This document shows positions 995-19,230 of a DNA stretch of 38,757 bases, piece after piece (positions within the stretch are counted from its first letter, which is position 1; the number at the start of each line of letters is the position of its first letter). Under the pieces are notes generated by a model. That model saw only the letters and a program-made list of their open reading frames with translations, ran no database searches and was not told the DNA's origin. A program made the translations under genes and the position numbers. The DNA lies in the NCBI GenBank assembly GCA_024641285.1, contig JAHEDH010000014.1, forward strand, positions 1 to 38,757. Direction: 5' to 3'. The stretch comes from a bacterium (GTDB lineage: Bacteria > Actinomycetota > Acidimicrobiia > Spongiisociales > ZC4RG35).

Positions 995-1479
995 CCGAGT
1001 CCGTGCTGTTCGTCCTGACGGCGGCCGTAATCGTCATCGGGGTCATCGGAACGATCGTGCCACTTCTTCCCGGTCTTGCACTGGTGTGGATCGCCACACT
1101 GGCCTGGGGGATCCTCACCGAGTTCGGCACAGCGGGAACGATCGCCATGATCTCGATCACGCTGCTGCTGGCGGCCGGGATCTACCTCAGCCTCCGCATC
1201 CCCCAGAAGTCCGCAGCCGCCCAGGGCCTGTCGCGCCGCGGCACGATCTTCGGCTTGGTGCTCGCCGTCGCCGTCGGCATCGTCATCCCGGTCATCGGGA
1301 TCCCGGTCGGTTTCGTCCTCGGCGTCTGGATCGTGAGGATCGCCGAGACCGGAGACGGCGCTGCGGCGTTTCAATCCGCCCTGGCCACCACCGGCGCGCT
1401 GATTCGGGCGAGCGCAGCCCAGTTCGCCATCGGCTGCGCCATGGGTGTGGTCTGGGTGATCTGGGCGCTCAGCGGGTGA
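991..1479 (+). CDS. DUF456 family membrane protein
   Basis: ATG at 991 overlaps the upstream stop (ATGA). Glycine-rich multi-TM protein (GVIGTIVPLLPGLALVWIATLAWG...) typical of DUF456. Confidence 0.8.
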   Translation: MTESVLFVLTAAVIVIGVIGTIVPLLPGLALVWIATLAWGILTEFGTAGTIAMISITLLLAAGIYLSLRIPQKSAAAQGLSRRGTIFGLVLAVAVGIVIPVIGIPVGFVLGVWIVRIAETGDGAAAFQSALATTGALIRASAAQFAIGCAMGVVWVIWALSG

Positions 1480-2620
1480 TGACCTTCTGCAGCCGCCAGA
1501 TCGCGACTGTGAGCAGGACGATCGAGTATGCCGCCAACACACCCAGGTGAGGAAGGATGTCGACGACCGAGCCGTCGCGTCTCACGAGCTCGGCGAAGGC
1601 ATCGTTGGCCCAGTAATGGGGCGTGATACGTGCGATCGACTGCATCGACGACGAGAAGATCTCGACCGGCACCATCGACCCACCCAGCGCAGCCAGCCCG
1701 AGTGCTGCAACCACCGAGATTCCGCCCGCCTGCTGGTCGTTCTTGAACACAGCACCGAAGAGCATGGCGGCAGAAGCACCGACCAGGCCGAAGCAGAGGA
1801 CGATCATCAATGCTCCGATCGGGTCGCCCCAGTCCACGCGGAAGGCCACCAGCGTGACAATGAGGATGTATATGCCCTGGAAGACGGCGACCCCCCACCG
1901 TCCGAGTACCTCGCCGAAGATCACCGTCCGCGCCGAAGCAGTCGTGGAGAGCATGCGTCGAGTCACTCCCAGTTGACGGCTCTGGATCAGCGCCGCCGAG
2001 CCGACCAGGCCGGTAAGGAAGACGAAGAGAACCAGCTGGGAGCTGGCTCCCAGATCGAACTGGCCCAAGTCGGCAAAGAGCGCATCTCCGGTCGTCCGCG
2101 TCTCGACATCGACATCGGCGATTGCCGACGCGGCACCTTCCACCAGCAACTCGGCCTGTTCGAGCGAGACCCCCTGGCTCTGAGAAACTGCCACTGCTGC
2201 GGCAGTGGGGCCGATGGCACGATTCAGCGCGCTCTCCGCAGCCGCTCGAATCGCCTGACCGGAGCTGTCAGGCTGGGTGATGAATCCGATCTGCGGGTCT
2301 CGACCGGCCAAAGCCTCAGCCGAGAGGTCATCGGGGAACACCATCACGGCGCTGACGTACCCCCGCTCTACCGCCAGCACAGCGGCATCCGAATCATCGA
2401 ACTCGCGGATCCCGTAGTCGGCGTCGAGCAAGTCGACGACGTCTCCGGCCAGCGGATCCCCGTCGACACCCGTCACACCGATGATCGGCTCGAATCCACC
2501 CCCGAATTGCGCTCCGATGATCAACACGAGCGCGATCGGGAACACGAAGACGAAGAAGAGATTCGAACGGTCACGAAACAGCCGAAGGAGTGCGGTCCGG
2601 GCTATGGCGAATGCCGTCAC
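1469..2620 (-). CDS. ABC-2 type transporter permease
   Basis: N-terminal TM, long extracytoplasmic loop, about five C-terminal TMs. GTG start at 2620 overlaps the stop of the upstream permease; the listed ORF extends to 2647. Confidence 0.85.
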   Translation of the reverse strand: MTAFAIARTALLRLFRDRSNLFFVFVFPIALVLIIGAQFGGGFEPIIGVTGVDGDPLAGDVVDLLDADYGIREFDDSDAAVLAVERGYVSAVMVFPDDLSAEALAGRDPQIGFITQPDSSGQAIRAAAESALNRAIGPTAAAVAVSQSQGVSLEQAELLVEGAASAIADVDVETRTTGDALFADLGQFDLGASSQLVLFVFLTGLVGSAALIQSRQLGVTRRMLSTTASARTVIFGEVLGRWGVAVFQGIYILIVTLVAFRVDWGDPIGALMIVLCFGLVGASAAMLFGAVFKNDQQAGGISVVAALGLAALGGSMVPVEIFSSSMQSIARITPHYWANDAFAELVRRDGSVVDILPHLGVLAAYSIVLLTVAIWRLQKVITR

Positions 2621-3795
2621 GCTGCCACCTCGCGAGTGAACGCCCACAGGGCGACGAGAGTCGCCGCGAGTGCGAACGCCCCGATCGCCAGCAGGCTCGG
2701 TACCACCAGGGAGATCGATCCACCTCCTGCGAGGTCGTTGAGCCCGCGCATGAACCAGGCGTGCGGCGTCAGGAGCGACAGTTTGGCGAGGATTCCCTCA
2801 CCGCCCGCCACGGGCACGAATGTCCCTCCGAGCAGACCGAGCGTCACAGCGATGATGGACTGGACGTTGCCTGCACCCTCCACGGTCTTGGCCAATGCAG
2901 CAACCACAGACATCACCGCGGTGGCTGCGAGCACACCCATGACGACGAGAGCGGACACCGCGAGCGGGTCCCCCCAGTTGGCGCCGAGACCCACCGCAGC
3001 CCCGAGCATCAGCACGGCCATCGACACAATGCCGAGCACGAAACTGACGAACGCCTTGGCAGCGATCACCGTGCCCTTCGAAACACCAGCGGACATCAAC
3101 CGGTCCCATGTGCCGAATCGGCGCTCCTCGAGCAGGCCCGCAACCCCGAACTGAACGGTGAAGAAGAGGAAGAACACGGCCATACCCGCCATCGCGTACG
3201 TCGGGCCGTCCATCTGTCGCACGACCGTGTTGAGATCACCCAGATGCGTCAGCGGGGGTTGGGTCGACGCCGCCTGGACCAGCGCAGGGATCGAATCGGG
3301 GCTCGCGCCGGCCGCAACCGATGCACCGACCGTGAGAGACACTCGTTCGACGTTGACGGCGTAGGCCTCGGCGATGGCGGCTGCGATGGCGGATCCGGTC
3401 GGGGCATCAACGTTGCCGATCACCTCGATCGCCGTGTCCTGGACGCCGACCAGCTCGCTGAATCCCGCGGGCACGACGAACGCCGCCGAGATCTCGTCGT
3501 CTTCGATCGCGGCCTCGGCGGCGGAGGCAGACGGGAAGTCTGTGACCTCGAACTGGTCGGAGCTGTCCAGCCCTTCGAGGACATCGGCCAGGGCAGCGCC
3601 GGCATCACCCCCGTCGAGGTCCACAAAGCCGTACGTCGCCGAGAACCCGCCGCCACTCAGGTCGAGCGCATCTCCAAACGCGAACGTGAAGATGAGAGCG
3701 AGCAACGCCGGAGCCGCGAGTCCGATGATGAATACGGATCGGTCCCGCAGTCGGAGCCGCAGGTCCTTTCCAGCGATGAGGAACATCTGTCGCAT
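2617..3795 (-). CDS. ABC-2 type transporter permease
   Basis: Same topology as its neighbour (MRQMFLIAGKDLRLRLRDRSVFIIGLAAPALLALIFTFAFGD...); coupled to the ATPase gene. Confidence 0.85.
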   Translation of the reverse strand: MRQMFLIAGKDLRLRLRDRSVFIIGLAAPALLALIFTFAFGDALDLSGGGFSATYGFVDLDGGDAGAALADVLEGLDSSDQFEVTDFPSASAAEAAIEDDEISAAFVVPAGFSELVGVQDTAIEVIGNVDAPTGSAIAAAIAEAYAVNVERVSLTVGASVAAGASPDSIPALVQAASTQPPLTHLGDLNTVVRQMDGPTYAMAGMAVFFLFFTVQFGVAGLLEERRFGTWDRLMSAGVSKGTVIAAKAFVSFVLGIVSMAVLMLGAAVGLGANWGDPLAVSALVVMGVLAATAVMSVVAALAKTVEGAGNVQSIIAVTLGLLGGTFVPVAGGEGILAKLSLLTPHAWFMRGLNDLAGGGSISLVVPSLLAIGAFALAATLVALWAFTREVAA

Positions 3796-6052: not shown

Positions 6053-7423
6053 TCAGAGAGCGCCGAACTGGCGCTCGGTGGGCTCCGCTCAACAGAACCA
6101 CGGCTCGGTGAGCCGCGGGCGGCCGGTGATCGCACCGGCCGGGATCTGCGGGGAGGACCCAGTCGAGCCGGCGGCGTCGAGGGCCATCGACCACATGTCT
6201 GTGAGCGTCGACGTCAACGGCTCGCCATCCGACGCCGCTCGCTCCGCCCGGGCCGCCAAGCGACGCTGGAGCTCGTCGACCACCGGGTCCTGCGACACCC
6301 AGGCGTACGACAGTGATTCCTCGTCGTAATCGCCGAGCATCTCCGAGACCATGGGGACATCGAGAACGAGCGAGCCGCGCGGTATCAGCAGCCGGATCGC
6401 CAACTGCACCGGCTCGGTCACCTCGAACAGGTCGAACTCGTCGATGAACGAGAAGATGTCAGCCACGTCTCCGGGCTGCGTCCAGGGGGTGAAGGGCAGC
6501 CAGGAAGGGTGGATGTCCAGGCCGACTTCGCGGCACAGCTCGAGCACGGTCGCCATGTCGGCACGGGTGTGGCCCTTGTCGAGAAGCTCGAGCACCGCGT
6601 CGTTGGTCGACTCGAACGCCGAGGTGACGAAGAGGACGTTGCGATCGGCCAACTCCCCGAGCAGATGTCGATGTGCCAGCAGGTGCTCGACCTTGATCGT
6701 CACGTCGTAGGTGACCGAAGGGAACAGGTCGTTGGCTGAACGCAGCACCTTCATGGCGTGCGCGACACCGTTGAAGAAATCCGGATCCCCGAAGGTGACG
6801 TGCTCGGCTCCGGCCGACACCAGATTCGAGATGTCACCGAGGACGGTCTCAGCCTGCACGATGCGAAAGCGGCCGTCGTAGACGACAGGGAGCGGGCAGT
6901 GTCGACAGCGGTGCCGGCATCCATGACTGGCCTCGACGTATCCGACCTTGCGATGATGCTGGCCGAAGCTCAGATGGGCGTACGCACCCAGGTCTGGCAG
7001 GCCGGAACGGTCGGGAACGAGAAAGTGCTGGCGTCCGAGATCGACCGACGCCCCGGTACTCGCCTCGCCGATAGACAGCGCATCGACCCATGCCGCCAGC
7101 TGCTCCTCGTATTCGCCGACGATGACCCGGTCCACTCCTTCGATGACCCCCATGTTCGCGTACAGCCCGTAGACGGCGATCGGCAGATTTGGCGCCGACG
7201 AACGGATCCGCTCGACCGTCCGCTGGGCGAGGCGCATCGCCGTGTGCATCGGCACCGAGATGGCAACCGCATCGACGCCGTCGAGCACTCGGGCATCGAA
7301 CGAAGCGATGGCGAGATCGAGCGACGACACCCCGTGACCGGATGCGGTCAGCCGGGCAGCCGGCGATGCCACGTGCAGCGGCTGGTGGCCGAGCTCATAG
7401 GTCGAGACGAGGAGGACTCTCAC
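6053..7423 (-). CDS. Radical SAM selenoprotein with CUAEP tail, read through in-frame TGA at 6089-6091
   Basis: CxxxCxxC motif (GCRHRCRHCPLP) and a possible N-terminal B12-binding-like region. Listed ORF ends ...RPRLTEPWFC-TGA; read-through gives C-U-A-E-P-T-E-R-Q-F-G-A-L then TGA at 6053-6055. Start probably GTG at 7423 (VRVLLVSTYELGHQ). Confidence 0.8.
6058..6076 (-). promoter_or_regulatory. Candidate bacterial SECIS element
   Basis: Minus strand GAGCGCC-AGTTC-GGCGCTC: perfect 7-bp stem, 5-nt loop with G in the second loop position, stem beginning 12 nt after the UGA. Confidence 0.65.
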
Positions 7424-7485
7424 CGGGACAAGGGTATTGGCTGCCGGCGTCTTTGCGGACGCAGTCGCCTCGGTAACGTTGCCGG

Positions 7486-8376
7486 ATGCAGCAAGGCAGA
7501 TTCGTCGACCTCCCATCCACCGAGATCCACGCAATCGACTCTGGCGGCTCCGGCACGCCGTTCCTCCTCATCCACGGGCTGGGCGGCAACCACGCAAATT
7601 GGATCGAGGTCTTCGAGCCTTTGGCCGAGCGCGGACGGGCGATCGCCATCGACCTGCCCGGGTACGGGTTCTCCCCGCCGATCGACTCACATGATCTGGA
7701 ACATCTGCGAGACGTCCTGATCGAATTGCTCGAGACGCTCCATCGCCCCGCACACCTGGTCGGCAACTCGATGGGCGGGCTGCTCGCCGAGATGGTGACC
7801 GCCGAGCGGCGCGACCTCGTCGACCAGCTCGTCCTCATCGCTCCTGCGTCACCCGTTGCTTCGCTGCGCCACAGACCGAAGAACGCAGTCGCCGCCCGCC
7901 TCGCCGCCCAGTCCGTCCCCGGGCTGGGAAGCCTCGTCGTCGAGGCCTATCGCCGCATGCTGACACCGCAGCAACGCGCGACCATGCTGCTCGACACCGT
8001 CTCCGCAGACGCGTCGAAGCTCCCCGAACGGGTCGTGGCTGCCTCGTTGGCGATGGCAGCGCGGAGGGATGCCATGCCGTGGAGTACCCGGTCGCTGGTC
8101 GAGTCGACGGTCTCGATCCGCAGGATGTTCGTTCCTCCGACCCGATTCCGCAGCCTCGTCGAGTCGGTCGATGTCGAGGCGCTCGTCCTCAGCGGTGACC
8201 GCGACATCGTCGTGGCACCCGAGGCGATCGACGGGCTGCAGTCGTTGCGACCTGACTGGACCTTCCACCGTCGGGCAGATCTGGGCCACGTGCCCCAGAT
8301 GGAGGCGGCGGATTGGGTCCTCGCGGAGATCGACAGCTGGCTGAGCCGGGACAGGAGAAGGGCTCGGGCGACCTGA
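7486..8376 (+). CDS. Alpha/beta hydrolase
   Basis: PFLLIHGLGGNHANW oxyanion region, GNSMGG nucleophile elbow, SGDRDIVV and a late His (LGHVPQMEA). Confidence 0.92.
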   Translation: MQQGRFVDLPSTEIHAIDSGGSGTPFLLIHGLGGNHANWIEVFEPLAERGRAIAIDLPGYGFSPPIDSHDLEHLRDVLIELLETLHRPAHLVGNSMGGLLAEMVTAERRDLVDQLVLIAPASPVASLRHRPKNAVAARLAAQSVPGLGSLVVEAYRRMLTPQQRATMLLDTVSADASKLPERVVAASLAMAARRDAMPWSTRSLVESTVSIRRMFVPPTRFRSLVESVDVEALVLSGDRDIVVAPEAIDGLQSLRPDWTFHRRADLGHVPQMEAADWVLAEIDSWLSRDRRRARAT

Positions 8377-8515: not shown

Positions 8516-11227
8516 ATGTCGAACAACCCGGACCTCACCTACATCGACGGATTCGTACACCAACTGCACGATGCCGATCCCGCCGAGACCGGCGAGTGGC
8601 TGGATTCACTGGACACCGTCGTGGCCGAACGGGGGACGACCCGCGCCAAGTTCTTGATGGCGAAGCTCCTCGAGCGCGCCCACGAGATGTCTCTCGGTGT
8701 GCCGGGCTCGATCAGCACGCCGTACATCAACACCATCCCTCCCGAGGAGGAGCCCGAGTATCCGGGCGACGAGGCGATCGAGAAGCGGATCCGGAGGTTC
8801 ATCCGATGGAACGCCGCGGTCATGGTGATCAAGGCGAACCACCGGTCGAAGGGCATCGGCGGCCACCTGTCCTCGTTCGCGTCGTCGGCACTCATGTACG
8901 AAGTCGGGTTCAATCACTTCTTCAAGGGCAAGAACGACGGGCCGGGCGACGCCGTCTACATCCAGGGCCACGCATCCCCCGGCATCTACGCCAGGGCATT
9001 CCTCGAGGGCAGGCTCGACGAACAGCACCTCGACAACTTCCGCCACGAGATCGACGGCCACGGGCTGAGCTCATATCCCCATCCCCGCCTGATGCCGGAC
9101 TTCTGGGAGTACCCGACGGTCTCGATGGGCATCGGGCCGATGAACTCGCTCTACCAGGCGCGCTTCAACAAGTACCTGCACAACCGCGGCCTCGACGACA
9201 CATCCGACTCGAGGGTGTGGTGCTTCATCGGCGACGGGGAGTGCGACGAGCCCGAGACGCTCGGTTCGATCTCGCTCGCCGCCCGGGAGGGGCTCGACAA
9301 CCTCACCTGGGTGGTCAACTGCAATCTGCAGCGGCTCGACGGCCCCGTCCGCGGCAACGGCAAGGTGATCCAGGAGCTCGAGGCGATCTTCCGGGGGGCC
9401 GGTTGGAACGTCATCAAGGTCATCTGGGGAGGCAACTGGGACCCGATCCTCGAGCAGGATCACAGCGGGTCGCTGATCCACGTCATGAACACGACGGTGG
9501 ACGGCGAATACCAGCGCTACAAGGCCGAGAACGGCGCGTTTGTGCGTGAGCGATTCTTCGGGAAGGACCCAGAGGCCCTGAAACTCGTGGAGCACATGTC
9601 CGATGACGAGATCTGGGCGCTGCGACGCGGCGGCCACGACGCCACGAAGCTGTACGCCGCCTACGCCAAAGCCCAGACGCTCAAGGGCGCACCGACGGTC
9701 ATCCTGTGCAAGACGATCAAGGGTTGGGCGCTCGGCCCCGACGTCGAGGGACGCAACGCCACCCACCAGATCAAGGAGCTCACGAACCAGCAGCTGCTGA
9801 CGCTCCGAACCCGGCTGCACCTGGAGGACGAGATTCCCGAGGAGGCGCTCGCCGGCGACCAGGATCCGCCGTACTACCGGCCGCCCGCCGACTCGCCCGA
9901 GGGCCGCTATCTGCGTGAGACCAGGGCCAAGCTCGGAGGAGACATCCCGAGGCGAACAACCCAGGTCCGCTCCAAGCTCGAGCTCCCATCCCCCGACGTC
10001 TACGACCAGGTCTTCCAAGGATCGGGAAAGGTGGAGGCCTCCACCACGACCGCATTCACCCGCCTGCTCCGCAACCTCGCCCGCTCGGACGGATTCGGTC
10101 CGAGGGTGGTCCCGATCGTCCCGGACGAGGCACGGACCTTCGGCATGGACTCGCTCTTCCGTGAGCTGAAGATCTACGCCTCGAAGGGCCAACTGTACGA
10201 GCCGGTCGATGCTTCGATGCTGCTCGCCTACATGGAGAGCCGGGACGGCCAGATCCTCGAGGAAGGCATCACCGAGGCCGGATCGATGGCTTCGTGGACC
10301 GCGGCCGCCACCAGCTATGCGACCCGAGGCGTCCCTATGGTCCCCTTCTTCATCTTCTACTCGATGTTCGGCTGGCAGCGGACCGGAGACTTTCTCTGGG
10401 CTGCGGCCGACGCCAGGGCCCGGGGTTTCCTGATCGGCGCAACCGCCGGCCGGACCACGCTGATGGGTGAAGGGCTGCAACACCAGGACGGACACTCACT
10501 CGTTCTGTCCTCGGTGGTTCCAACCGCCCTCTCATACGACCCTGCGTTCGCCTACGAGACCGGGGTGATCGTCCGCGACGGCATCGAGCGGATGTACCTG
10601 CACAACGAAGACATCTTCTACTACATCACCGCCTACAACGAGAATTACATCCAGCCGGCCAAGCCCGAAGGCGTCGACCGCGGGATCCTCGACGGTCTGT
10701 ACAAGTGGTCGGATGCGCCCGAAGGCCCGACGCACCGGGCGACGATCCTCTTCTCGGGCTCTGCCAACATCGCGGCACGGCAAGCACAGGCGGAGCTCGC
10801 CGAGCACTTCGACGTCGCCGCCGATCTCTGGTCGGCGACGTCGTACAAGCTGTTGAGGGAGGATGCGCTGGAGGCGGATCGATGGAATCGCCTCCACCCG
10901 GCCGAGCAGCCGCGCACGCCTTTCGTCACGAGCGCCCTGAGCAACGGCACGGGACCGGTGGTCGCGGTCACCGACTTCATGCGGACGGTCGCCGAGCAGA
11001 TCCAGCCGTGGGTGCCGCGCCCCTACATCCCGCTCGGGACCGACGGGTTCGGCCGTTCGGACACGAGGTCTGCTCTCAGGCGGTTCTTCGAGACCGACAC
11101 CGGTCATGTCGTGGTGGCGACGCTGTCGGGGCTGGTCCGCGACGGTGCTCTCCCTGCCGAGGTGATGCCTCGGGCGTTCGAGCGCTACGGCATCGACCCC
11201 GACGTCGGACCTCCCTGGAAGCGTTGA
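8516..11227 (+). CDS. aceE: Pyruvate dehydrogenase (acetyl-transferring), homodimeric E1 component
   Basis: 903 aa; ThDP-binding GDGECDEPE...NLTWVVNCNLQRLDGPVRGNGKVIQELE and YIPLGTDGFGRSDTR typical of homodimeric AceE. Confidence 0.97.
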   Translation: MSNNPDLTYIDGFVHQLHDADPAETGEWLDSLDTVVAERGTTRAKFLMAKLLERAHEMSLGVPGSISTPYINTIPPEEEPEYPGDEAIEKRIRRFIRWNAAVMVIKANHRSKGIGGHLSSFASSALMYEVGFNHFFKGKNDGPGDAVYIQGHASPGIYARAFLEGRLDEQHLDNFRHEIDGHGLSSYPHPRLMPDFWEYPTVSMGIGPMNSLYQARFNKYLHNRGLDDTSDSRVWCFIGDGECDEPETLGSISLAAREGLDNLTWVVNCNLQRLDGPVRGNGKVIQELEAIFRGAGWNVIKVIWGGNWDPILEQDHSGSLIHVMNTTVDGEYQRYKAENGAFVRERFFGKDPEALKLVEHMSDDEIWALRRGGHDATKLYAAYAKAQTLKGAPTVILCKTIKGWALGPDVEGRNATHQIKELTNQQLLTLRTRLHLEDEIPEEALAGDQDPPYYRPPADSPEGRYLRETRAKLGGDIPRRTTQVRSKLELPSPDVYDQVFQGSGKVEASTTTAFTRLLRNLARSDGFGPRVVPIVPDEARTFGMDSLFRELKIYASKGQLYEPVDASMLLAYMESRDGQILEEGITEAGSMASWTAAATSYATRGVPMVPFFIFYSMFGWQRTGDFLWAAADARARGFLIGATAGRTTLMGEGLQHQDGHSLVLSSVVPTALSYDPAFAYETGVIVRDGIERMYLHNEDIFYYITAYNENYIQPAKPEGVDRGILDGLYKWSDAPEGPTHRATILFSGSANIAARQAQAELAEHFDVAADLWSATSYKLLREDALEADRWNRLHPAEQPRTPFVTSALSNGTGPVVAVTDFMRTVAEQIQPWVPRPYIPLGTDGFGRSDTRSALRRFFETDTGHVVVATLSGLVRDGALPAEVMPRAFERYGIDPDVGPPWKR

Positions 11228-13138: not shown

Positions 13139-14206
13139 TCAGTCGTCCGGACGATGCCGCCTGGTCACCGAGACGGGTTCGCCCGAACTCCCCGTTCTCA
13201 CCGCCAGGATCTCCGCCAGGATCGACCAGGCGATCTCTACCGGCCCCTCGGCGCCGATATCCAGGCCTGCCGGTCCACGGATTCGCCGCTTCAGCTCGGC
13301 ATCGAAGACGACACCCTCACCCTCGAGGTCATCGAACAGCCGGTCCAGTCGCTCGTTCGGGCCGAGTGCGCCGACGTACGCGACTCTCGATCCGTGGATC
13401 TGCCGCAGATACTCGAGATCGCGCAGGTAGTTGTGCGACATGAGCACGACATAGGTGCGCTCATCGAGGTTGACGACCGACGCCAACTCACCCGCCTCGG
13501 CGTGGACCAGTTCCGTGCCCTCGGGGAAGCGCTCCGTCGTCAGCAGATTGCGACGATCGTCGGTGACGATCGTCTCGAATCCGAGTTCGGAGCCGTATCG
13601 AACGACCGGGTTGGCATCGTGCCCGGCACCGCATACGAGCAGACGTGACGGGGATCCTACGACCTCGATCAGCGACCGCTCACCCTCGATCTCCACGACC
13701 CGGTGGCGCCCCTCGCGCATCGCTGCTTCGGCTTCCTCGGTCAACTGGCCGAGCACAGGCGCGTCTCCGGAAGGGGTGACGAATCGGCGAGTTCCGAGGC
13801 AGTCGGGGTCGAGGGAATGGATCACCGCCGAGCGACGGCCCGCTCTCGACACACCGAGCCGCTCGCCCAATTCGAGTGCCGTGGTGCTCGGTTCCACGAG
13901 CACCTCGGTGGCGCCGTTGCAACCGATCCCCCATCCCCAGATCGCCTCGTCGTCTGCCGTCAGATCGAACTCGACCAGCTGCGGCCGTCCGGTCTCGATG
14001 ACGTGTGCCGCCACCTGATGCAGGTCGTTGTCGAGGCAGCCCCCGGAGATGGTCCCGACGCTGGCGGACTGGTCACTCACGGCCTGGCGAGCAGCGAGGC
14101 CGCGATACGTCGAGCCTCTCACCCCGACCACCGTGGCGAGGGCGAACGGCACGCCGCGACGCTCCCAGTCGATCATCGTCTCGAGAATCGTGTCCAGCTC
14201 GGTCAC
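13139..14206 (-). CDS. XdhC family protein (molybdenum hydroxylase maturation)
   Basis: SVGTISGGCLDNDL, WGWGIGCNGATEVLVEP, LLVCGAGHDANPVVRYGSELGFETIVTDDR and MSHNYLRDLEYLR typical of XdhC. GTG start at 14206 inferred. Confidence 0.92.
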   Translation of the reverse strand: MTELDTILETMIDWERRGVPFALATVVGVRGSTYRGLAARQAVSDQSASVGTISGGCLDNDLHQVAAHVIETGRPQLVEFDLTADDEAIWGWGIGCNGATEVLVEPSTTALELGERLGVSRAGRRSAVIHSLDPDCLGTRRFVTPSGDAPVLGQLTEEAEAAMREGRHRVVEIEGERSLIEVVGSPSRLLVCGAGHDANPVVRYGSELGFETIVTDDRRNLLTTERFPEGTELVHAEAGELASVVNLDERTYVVLMSHNYLRDLEYLRQIHGSRVAYVGALGPNERLDRLFDDLEGEGVVFDAELKRRIRGPAGLDIGAEGPVEIAWSILAEILAVRTGSSGEPVSVTRRHRPDD

Positions 14207-14246
14207 AGCGATCAGATTACGGCCCCTTGGGGGCTGCGCGTCCGGA

Positions 14247-14726
14247 TCAGCGGTGTTCGGTGTCTCCAGCCAGCAGGTCGAGCGCATGCGGGATCAGCGG
14301 CAGGATCGCCGTGAGGTTCTCCTCCACCCCGCGCGGGCTCCCCGGCAAATTCACGATCAACGACGACCCCAACGAGCCGGCCACCGCCCGGGACAAAGCG
14401 GCCATCGGCGTGCTCGCCAGTCCGGTGGCGAGCATGAGGTGAACCAGACCCGGGGCCTCGCGATCGATCACGGCGCGGGTCGCCTCGGGTGTGACGTCCC
14501 GAGGACCGAATCCGGTGCCGCCGGTCGTCACGACGAGACGGGCACTACCTGCGAGATCGCGGATCGTCGAGATCAGATCCTCGATGTCGTCGGGCACCAC
14601 GACTTGTTCGACGACATCGAACCCGGCCTCGGTGAGCAGCCGGGCGACGAGTCGGCCGGACCGATCGTCACGAACTCCCGATGCGACGCCGTCACTCGCC
14701 GTGAGGACCGCAGCGGGATGCACCAT
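14247..14726 (-). CDS. MogA/MoaB family molybdopterin biosynthesis protein
   Basis: [38 protein letters not shown] and [15 protein letters not shown] motifs. Confidence 0.93.
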
Positions 14727-17266: not shown

Positions 17267-18166
17267 ATGACGCTCGACACCTCCTCTTCCCGCTCGCTCG
17301 GTCCGCTCGAACCGGTCGGCCCGCTGGCGTTCGGGCATTGGCGATTCGTGGGACACGACCTGGCCACTGCGACCGAATTGGTCGAGACGGCGCTCGACCT
17401 CGGCATGAATCTCATCGACACGGCTGATGTCTACGGGCTCGACTGGGGAGGCGACGGGTTCGGTGACGCCGAGAGCCTCCTCGGGTCGGTCCTGGCGGCG
17501 TCTCCCTCGCTCAGGGACCGCATGGTGCTCGCCACCAAGGGCGGCATCATGCCTCCCATCCCCTACGACTCGTCTGCCCGCTACCTGACCGCCGCCCTCG
17601 ACGCCTCGCTTTCCCGGCTTCGAGTCGACCGGGTCGACCTGTACCAGATCCACCGACCCGACATGTTCACGCATCCCGAAGAGCTCGCCGCGACCCTGAG
17701 CCGCTTCGTGGAACAGGGCAAGATCGGCGCAGTGGGTGTCTCGAACTTCACGCCGGCCCAGACAGAGGCGCTCATCTCGTATCTCGGCGATACCGTCGTG
17801 GCGACCCAGCCGCAATTCTCGGTCAGCCACCTCTCGCCGCTCCGGGACGGCACACTCGATCAAGCGATGAGGCTCGACCTCCGCCCGTTGGCGTGGAGCG
17901 CGCTCGGAGGAGGATCGCTCGCGACCGGACATGGCGTCCGAACGGAGTTGATGCTCGAACTCGATGCGCTGGCCGCCAGGGAATCGGTCGATCGCACCGC
18001 CATTGCGCTTGCATTCGTCCTCGCCCACCCGTCACGCCCCGTTGCGATCGTGGGCTCGCAGAAACCGGAGCGACTGCGCTCTGCGACTGCGGCGCTCGAC
18101 GTCTCGCTGACGAGGGATGACCTGTACACCTTGATCGAAGCCTCGGAAGGAGAGCCCCTCCCATGA
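17267..18166 (+). CDS. Aldo/keto reductase
   Basis: LGMNLIDTADVYG, ATKGGI, SLSRLRVDRVDLYQIHRPD and IGAVGVSNFT motifs. Confidence 0.93.
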   Translation: MTLDTSSSRSLGPLEPVGPLAFGHWRFVGHDLATATELVETALDLGMNLIDTADVYGLDWGGDGFGDAESLLGSVLAASPSLRDRMVLATKGGIMPPIPYDSSARYLTAALDASLSRLRVDRVDLYQIHRPDMFTHPEELAATLSRFVEQGKIGAVGVSNFTPAQTEALISYLGDTVVATQPQFSVSHLSPLRDGTLDQAMRLDLRPLAWSALGGGSLATGHGVRTELMLELDALAARESVDRTAIALAFVLAHPSRPVAIVGSQKPERLRSATAALDVSLTRDDLYTLIEASEGEPLP

Positions 18167-19230
18167 CCATCGAAATCTCCTGGTTCGGCGCACTGTGCGA
18201 CGACGACTATGAATTCCTCGGCGTGCCGGACCCGGCACTCCGAAGCTCCTGGCCTCACTGCCGCGACATCGTGCAGACTGCCGACCGGCTCGGATTCGAC
18301 AACATCCTGCTCCCGAGCGGTTACTCGCTCGGGATCGACACGGTCGCCTTCGCAAGCGCCATCGCCGTAAACGTCGAACAGATCCAACTCCTCGTGGCCG
18401 TTCGGATGGGCGAGATGTGGGTTCCACAGCTCGCCCGGCAACTCGCAACGATCGATCAGATGCTCGACGGCCGGTTGACGATCAACATCATCTCCTCGGA
18501 CATCCCCGGGGAGAGCCTCGACTCTGCACCCCGGTACCAGCGGACGATCGAGTGGATGCAGGCGCTCCGCGCCCTCCTCAACAACGAGAGACTCGAGATC
18601 AACGGCGGGTTCCTCGACCTGGACCTCGAGCCGCCTCGGATCTCGACGGTGTCCGGCACCTGCCCGCCGATGTACTTCGGAGGCTTCTCCGAAGCTGCCA
18701 AAGACGTCGCGGCACGTGAGGCCGACGTGTTCCTCACGTGGCCCGACACGGTGGCTTCGGTCGCTGCGACCGCTGCAGAGATGACCGAACGCGCCGCCGG
18801 GTACGACCGCACCCTGGCGATCGGGCTCCGTAGCCACGTCATCGTCCGCGAAACCGAGCAGGAGGCGCGAGCGGCAGCCGACCGCCTCATCTCCAAGCTC
18901 GACGCCGAGACCGGCGCCGCCATTCGCGGCAAGTCGCTCGACTCCGCCTCGGTGGGTGTCCAGCGTCAGGCCGCCCTCCGGGAAGGCGCATCCGAGGACG
19001 GCTACGCCGAGCCGAATCTCTGGACGGGGATCGGCAAGGCACGATCGGGGGCGGGAGCCGCCATCGTGGGAGATCCGGACCAGGTCGTCGCCAAGATCGA
19101 GGCTTACCAGGACGCAGGGGTGTCGGCATTCATCTTCTCCGGTTACACCCACATCGCAGAGGCCGAGCGGTTCGCCGAGATGGTGCTCCCCCGGCTCGAC
19201 CACGGCAGATTGAGGGATCAGCTCAGCTAG
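18163..19230 (+). CDS. LLM class flavin-dependent monooxygenase, SsuD/alkanesulfonate monooxygenase-like
   Basis: Recalled E. coli SsuD motifs are shared: PPMYFGG, LRSHVIVRETEQEA..AADRLISKLDAET, SVGVQRQAAL, PNLWTGIGKARSGAGAAIVGDPDQVVAKIEAY, SGYTHIAEAERF. ATGA overlap with the AKR gene. Confidence 0.9.
   Translation: MTIEISWFGALCDDDYEFLGVPDPALRSSWPHCRDIVQTADRLGFDNILLPSGYSLGIDTVAFASAIAVNVEQIQLLVAVRMGEMWVPQLARQLATIDQMLDGRLTINIISSDIPGESLDSAPRYQRTIEWMQALRALLNNERLEINGGFLDLDLEPPRISTVSGTCPPMYFGGFSEAAKDVAAREADVFLTWPDTVASVAATAAEMTERAAGYDRTLAIGLRSHVIVRETEQEARAAADRLISKLDAETGAAIRGKSLDSASVGVQRQAALREGASEDGYAEPNLWTGIGKARSGAGAAIVGDPDQVVAKIEAYQDAGVSAFIFSGYTHIAEAERFAEMVLPRLDHGRLRDQLS

Follow-up and report, generated by a model that had tools for sequence, protein, structure and literature searches.

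A radical SAM gene with an in-frame TGA codon is found on the minus strand of the window (the whole stretch of 38,757 nucleotides that was analysed). It is flanked on one side by a divergent hydrolase gene and aceE and on the other by ABC transporter genes. The features are as follows.

6053..7423 (-): CDS of the predicted CUAEP-tail radical SAM selenoprotein (GTG start, 456 aa, Sec at residue 445, true stop TGA at 6053-6055)
6089..6091 (-): in-frame TGA, residue 445, read as selenocysteine
6056..6106 (-): conserved C-terminal tail, E-P-W-F-C-U-A-E-P-T-E-R-Q-F-G-A-L
6058..6076 (-): putative bacterial SECIS hairpin (stem GAGCGCC/GGCGCUC, loop AGUUC), starting 12 nt after the UGA
6896..6919 (-): radical SAM [4Fe-4S] motif, C169-x3-C173-x2-C176 (Pfam PF04055 above cut-off)
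7091..7414 (-): degenerate B12-binding-like N-terminal domain (PF02310, 27.7 bits, under the 32.1 cut-off)
7486..8376 (+): divergent alpha/beta hydrolase gene, whose cluster lies beside the CUAEP gene in six loci, the window included
8516..11227 (+): aceE, pyruvate dehydrogenase E1, single copy in the genome
3795-5219 (-): ABC transporter ATPase, downstream of the CUAEP gene on the same strand
2617-3795 and 1469-2647 (-): two ABC-2 permeases, downstream of the CUAEP gene

Standard ORF calling ends at the in-frame TGA (ORF 6089-7534), as the first-pass annotation had said. The minus strand from 6109 to 6053 reads ACC GAG CCG TGG TTC TGT TGA GCG GAG CCC ACC GAG CGC CAG TTC GGC GCT CTC TGA, exactly the string quoted in that annotation with its C-U-A-E-P continuation. 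With the TGA read as Sec the protein ends in RPRLTEPWFC-U-AEPTERQFGAL. The likely start is the GTG at 7421-7423, because starting from the TTG at 7534 adds 37 residues beyond the family model. The canonical CxxxCxxC motif noticed earlier is present at residues 169, 173 and 176. All three cysteines are invariant in an alignment of 87 CUAEP relatives. In the same alignment E440, W442, C444, C/U445, E447 and P448 are invariant and A446 is nearly so; the tail residues are as conserved as the cluster cysteines. Genes of the ABC/ABC-2 type also lie downstream of the CUAEP gene in related Acidimicrobiia loci.

The CUAEP/CCAEP radical SAM family to which the first-pass annotation pointed exists as NCBIfam NF040546 (rSAM_CUAEP, "CUAEP/CCAEP-tail radical SAM (seleno)protein"). 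In the HMM search proposed there, the extended protein scored 530.5 bits over residues 2-453, above the curated cut-off of 500 bits. Without the tail the score is 509.3 bits, still above the cut-off. The gain in score and the conservation of the tail in the 87 relatives indicate that the read-through tail is not a chance continuation. The protein shares with NF040546 the whole-length match, the CxxxCxxC motif, the CU/CCAEP tail (here PWFC-U-AEP) and the Sec/Cys exchange. No defining difference was found, and the window protein is best described as a predicted Sec-carrying member. The literature searched (two main selenoprotein papers by NCBI authors lay outside its scope) contained no publication on CUAEP, CCAEP or RCCLKC, in agreement with the earlier remark that the function is essentially undescribed. 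Neither NF040546 nor CUAEP is listed in a 2026 review of prokaryotic selenoproteins. Since the public name of the family already holds the Sec possibility, the main selenocysteine claim is not new in kind, and both the family and its Sec reading are known to curators. New in this analysis are the evidence from the SECIS and from Sec/Cys exchange, the association with the ligase, the similarity of the tail to that of ArsL and the pyruvate dehydrogenase gene nearby.

Decoding of the in-frame TGA

All four genes for selenocysteine insertion, which the first-pass annotation had named as the check on its reading, are present in the window's genome. The tRNA-Sec (selC, anticodon TCA) was found above the Rfam cut-off, and selA, selB and selD were all identified. 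The selD gene (contig C106, locus L018, approximately 1500-2530) has its own in-frame TGA and reads YSHGAG-TGA-ACKLGP. This TGA falls at the position of the catalytic Sec or Cys in SelD enzymes, and SelD of this genome is likely itself a selenoprotein.

Homologs were compared at 117 related loci. The codon between the cysteine and (A/S)EP is TGA in 52 loci and TGC or TGT in 63; two distant loci read CCAAP. The homologs thus keep AEP after the TGA or carry Cys in its place, and none of this contradicts the original reading. One candidate TGA form (genome G014) was rejected, since its tail carries Cys and its TGA is a normal stop codon.

When the window was scanned with Rfam at gathering thresholds there was no match; the hairpin downstream of the TGA was identified by folding and by comparison of Sec and Cys forms. 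At a fixed register its seven stem pairs are formed at 95% in 48 distinct Sec sequences and at 39% in 54 Cys sequences, although both forms encode similar tails. The median folding energy is about -11.9 kcal/mol for Sec sequences and -3.4 kcal/mol for Cys sequences. Six of the seven stem pairs differ on both sides among sequences, as compensatory changes do, and the second base of the loop is G in all 48 Sec sequences. When the 3' arms were permuted among Sec sequences, 0 of 2000 permutations reached the observed pairing, a count that is no strict probability because the sequences are related. The contrast with the Cys forms is the stronger control. In two Cys forms (L106 and L114) 6 of the 7 pairs are still formed, and their neighbors in the tree are Sec forms. 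This fits what is expected of a recent Sec-to-Cys change, and both are likely to be such cases.

The distribution of SelA was surveyed across 296 genomes sampled evenly from the class, 103 with and 193 without the CUAEP gene. SelA is above cut-off in all 27 genomes with a TGA tail; of the remaining 76 that have the gene, 26 lack SelA above cut-off (p = 0.00016, a value that ignores kinship between genomes). In a tree of 109 proteins 13 Sec/Cys changes were counted, of which at least 8 are forced by well-supported branches. Sec and Cys therefore appear to have been exchanged at least eight times.

Three sequence hallmarks of a bacterial selenoprotein gene, namely the sel machinery, a downstream SECIS hairpin and Cys in homologs, were all found. 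We estimate at about 97% the probability that the TGA at 6089-6091 is decoded as selenocysteine by the genome's own SelA, SelB, SelC and SelD with the help of the downstream SECIS element. The suggestion in the first-pass annotation that this TGA is probably selenocysteine is thus strengthened by the sel genes, the Sec/Cys homologs, a hairpin specific to Sec forms, the co-occurrence of SelA and the tree. That the TGA is an ordinary stop, with the tail beyond it a leftover or chance, is most improbable: ORF callers do end there and the truncated protein passes NF040546 at 509 bits, but the tail is kept in 115 loci with Cys at the same position in half of them, the hairpin is specific to Sec forms and the Sec machinery is complete, so that this reading is refuted as far as sequence can refute it.

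CUAEP genes can be annotated 12 residues short and lose a likely catalytic selenocysteine. The hairpin offers a way to find Sec forms automatically. One example of a shortened annotation is found on a plasmid of Thermomicrobium roseum DSM 5159 (NC_011961.1, L149:6935-8395). Its RefSeq entry, WP_012643191.1, bears the CUAEP/CCAEP-tail name but is cut off at the TGA, beyond which the frame continues as WFC-U-AEP and the DNA forms a hairpin. This is a cultured organism in which Sec can be tested. The repeated selenium/sulfur swap in the CUAEP/CCAEP tail raises the further question of its reason.

An ATP-grasp ligase as constant partner

Gene clustering of 81 CUAEP neighborhoods found one constant companion, an ATP-grasp protein. 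It directly adjoins the CUAEP gene in about 40 of 80 loci from several phyla, lying a few dozen bases upstream on the same strand. In the loci of Acidobacteriota and Pseudomonadota it lies on the opposite side. In the sample of 296 genomes the ligase is present in 100 of 103 with the CUAEP gene and in 30 of 193 without it. In the window's genome it is found on another contig (C104), not adjacent to the CUAEP gene. Genomes of about 1 Mb retain both genes. The partner carries LAL_C2, the C-terminal domain of L-amino acid ligases. Its closest solved relative is the L-amino acid ligase BL00235 (5e-65), of the same ATP-grasp fold family, and BacD shares both the fold family and the LAL_C2 domain. 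The partner reached no equivalog cut-off.

The 30 CUAEP-free genomes imply either an independent role for the ligase or another enzyme in the place of CUAEP. An NfuA-like gene is usually divergent from the ligase gene, also in genomes without CUAEP. Two loci with the ATP-grasp gene and no CUAEP gene (L147 in G022 and L148 in G001) again have it beside NfuA. In a streamlined genome of ~1.1 Mb (G057) the NfuA/ATP-grasp pair is located away from the CUAEP gene, which lies there (L139, L140) beside an F420-type LLM oxidoreductase, a flavin reductase and a SelL-related redox protein.

Relationship to ArsL and possible chemistry

The ArsL model NF040542 matches the body of the protein at 262 bits, and all other families score 41 bits or less. 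The match is under the NF040542 cut-off of 450 bits, and the RCCLKC tail of that family is absent; the window protein has FCUAEP. ArsL transfers the aminocarboxypropyl group of SAM to arsenite, as deduced in E. coli cells with the aid of stop-codon mutants and from the speciation of arsenic (PMC8552651). The authors put forward the radical mechanism as a proposal. Three plasmid-borne ArsL-type proteins show 28 to 33% identity to the window protein over about 385 residues and end in FKRCCLKC. Their cysteine pair aligns with C444-U445. The two groups are homologous over 385-393 residues and some ArsL loci include an ATP-grasp gene. They differ in that CUAEP enzymes have ~50 more residues before the tail, carry AEP in place of LKC and lack the arsenic gene surroundings. 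An ArsL-like chemistry may be proposed for the CUAEP enzyme, although the level of identity (~30%) and a score below the ArsL cut-off count against it.

Following this proposal, the protein would be a radical SAM enzyme that works without B12, belongs to the ArsL lineage and splits SAM to give a 3-amino-3-carboxypropyl group. This group would be placed on a soft acceptor, such as a metalloid, sulfur or selenium center. Binding, delivery or reduction of the acceptor would fall to the Cys-Sec (or Cys-Cys) pair at the C-terminus, a part that the RCC of ArsL may also play. The product would be a 2-amino-4-substituted butanoate resembling methionine, and the co-occurring ligase would couple it to a second amino acid. 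The partnership would be most simply explained by a radical enzyme that makes an amino acid and an amino acid ligase that acts after it. The mechanism as a whole, from ArsL-like transfer onto an acceptor held by Cys-Sec to ligation, is put forward tentatively and at somewhat less than even odds. Against it count the place of the ligase gene on another contig in the window's genome, the 30 genomes that have the ligase and no CUAEP gene, and the near absence of arsenic genes around CUAEP genes. With a constant ligase partner and a tail in common with ArsL, the family becomes testable as to which atom takes the SAM-derived group.

Three other functions were weighed against ArsL-like transfer. The first is ordinary 5'-deoxyadenosyl radical chemistry (dehydration or oxidation in the manner of AprD4) with Cys-Sec as a plain redox tail. 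The AlphaFold2 model is confident along its whole length (mean pLDDT 95, and 78-89 in the last four ten-residue blocks) and its best solved structural matches are AprD4 and TsrM, which have in common with the window protein a B12-binding-like domain followed by a radical SAM barrel. The identity to both is 15-18%, a resemblance at the level of fold and architecture, and the sequence favors ArsL by a wide margin. This function is doubtful, with odds well short of even.

The second possibility is a role in support of pyruvate dehydrogenase or of lipoyl metabolism; the enzyme might, for instance, modify or repair a lipoyl or Fe-S component while its Cys-Sec tail reduces a dithiol. In 23 of the 81 loci aceE lies within 6 kb of the CUAEP gene. 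It does so in two layouts, and the window shows one of them; lipA is near the gene in 13 of 81 loci, lipB in 4 and the NfuA-like gene in 31. In Chloroflexota loci lipA, lipB and an E2-like gene are also near the CUAEP gene. The aceE of the window is the genome's only copy, and the idea of a spare, self-resistant copy was rejected on that ground. Against a role of this kind, aceE and lipA are missing from most loci, the constant partner is the ligase and not aceE, and many aceE loci come from close relatives and are not independent. We consider it unlikely. The closeness of aceE, lipA and lipB is left unexplained by the ArsL-like model and could be a sign of a link with pyruvate or lipoyl metabolism.

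The third possibility, that the enzyme makes arsinothricin-like organoarsenicals as ArsL does, is quite unlikely. ArsL is the nearest family, the C-terminal cysteine pair is shared, and an ATP-grasp gene can occur in ArsL loci too. The surroundings of the CUAEP gene do not fit: no arsM, arsQ or arsN1 link was seen in the neighborhoods, no arsQ, arsM or arsR context was found in the window, and there is one ArsR among the 81 neighborhoods. ArsM is no commoner with the CUAEP gene (21 of 103 genomes) than elsewhere (41 of 193), and none above cut-off was found in the window's genome. With arsenic genes nearly absent from CUAEP loci and ArsM not enriched, arsenic as the acceptor is not supported. 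The persistence of the gene in streamlined genomes of ~1 Mb also looks more like a core trait than a resistance or antibiotic trait.

The single neighborhood with ArsR (L057:7549-11131) has an ArsR-type regulator directly downstream of the CUAEP gene, followed by a methyltransferase and a probable metal-transporting ATPase. Two ArsL (RCCLKC) loci on Priestia and Alicyclobacillus plasmids hold an ATP-grasp gene broadly of the type of the CUAEP partner (26% identity) adjoining the arsenic genes (L150:1635-2858 and L152:1436-2668). This suggests that an amino acid like arsinothricin may become part of a peptide at these plasmid loci.

Returning to ArsL-like transfer, a broader reading is possible. 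The CUAEP/CCAEP enzymes and the ligase might together make up a two-enzyme pathway that is widespread among environmental Actinomycetota, Chloroflexota and Acidobacteriota and has so far gone undescribed. In it, a soft acceptor presented by the Cys-Sec tail would receive the aminocarboxypropyl group, and the resulting amino acid would be incorporated into a dipeptide whose core role is linked to pyruvate or lipoyl metabolism. This is a rather speculative extension, and we hold it to be doubtful.

Two other genes in the window are mentioned here. The gene at 18163-19230 (+) encodes a relative of FMNH2-dependent alkanesulfonate monooxygenase, under the cut-off of that family. The gene at 13139-14287 (-) belongs to the XdhC family and is related to the XdhC_rel_AOR model, under its cut-off. 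An XdhC-family gene is also found in three other CUAEP neighborhoods (L054, L060 and L077).
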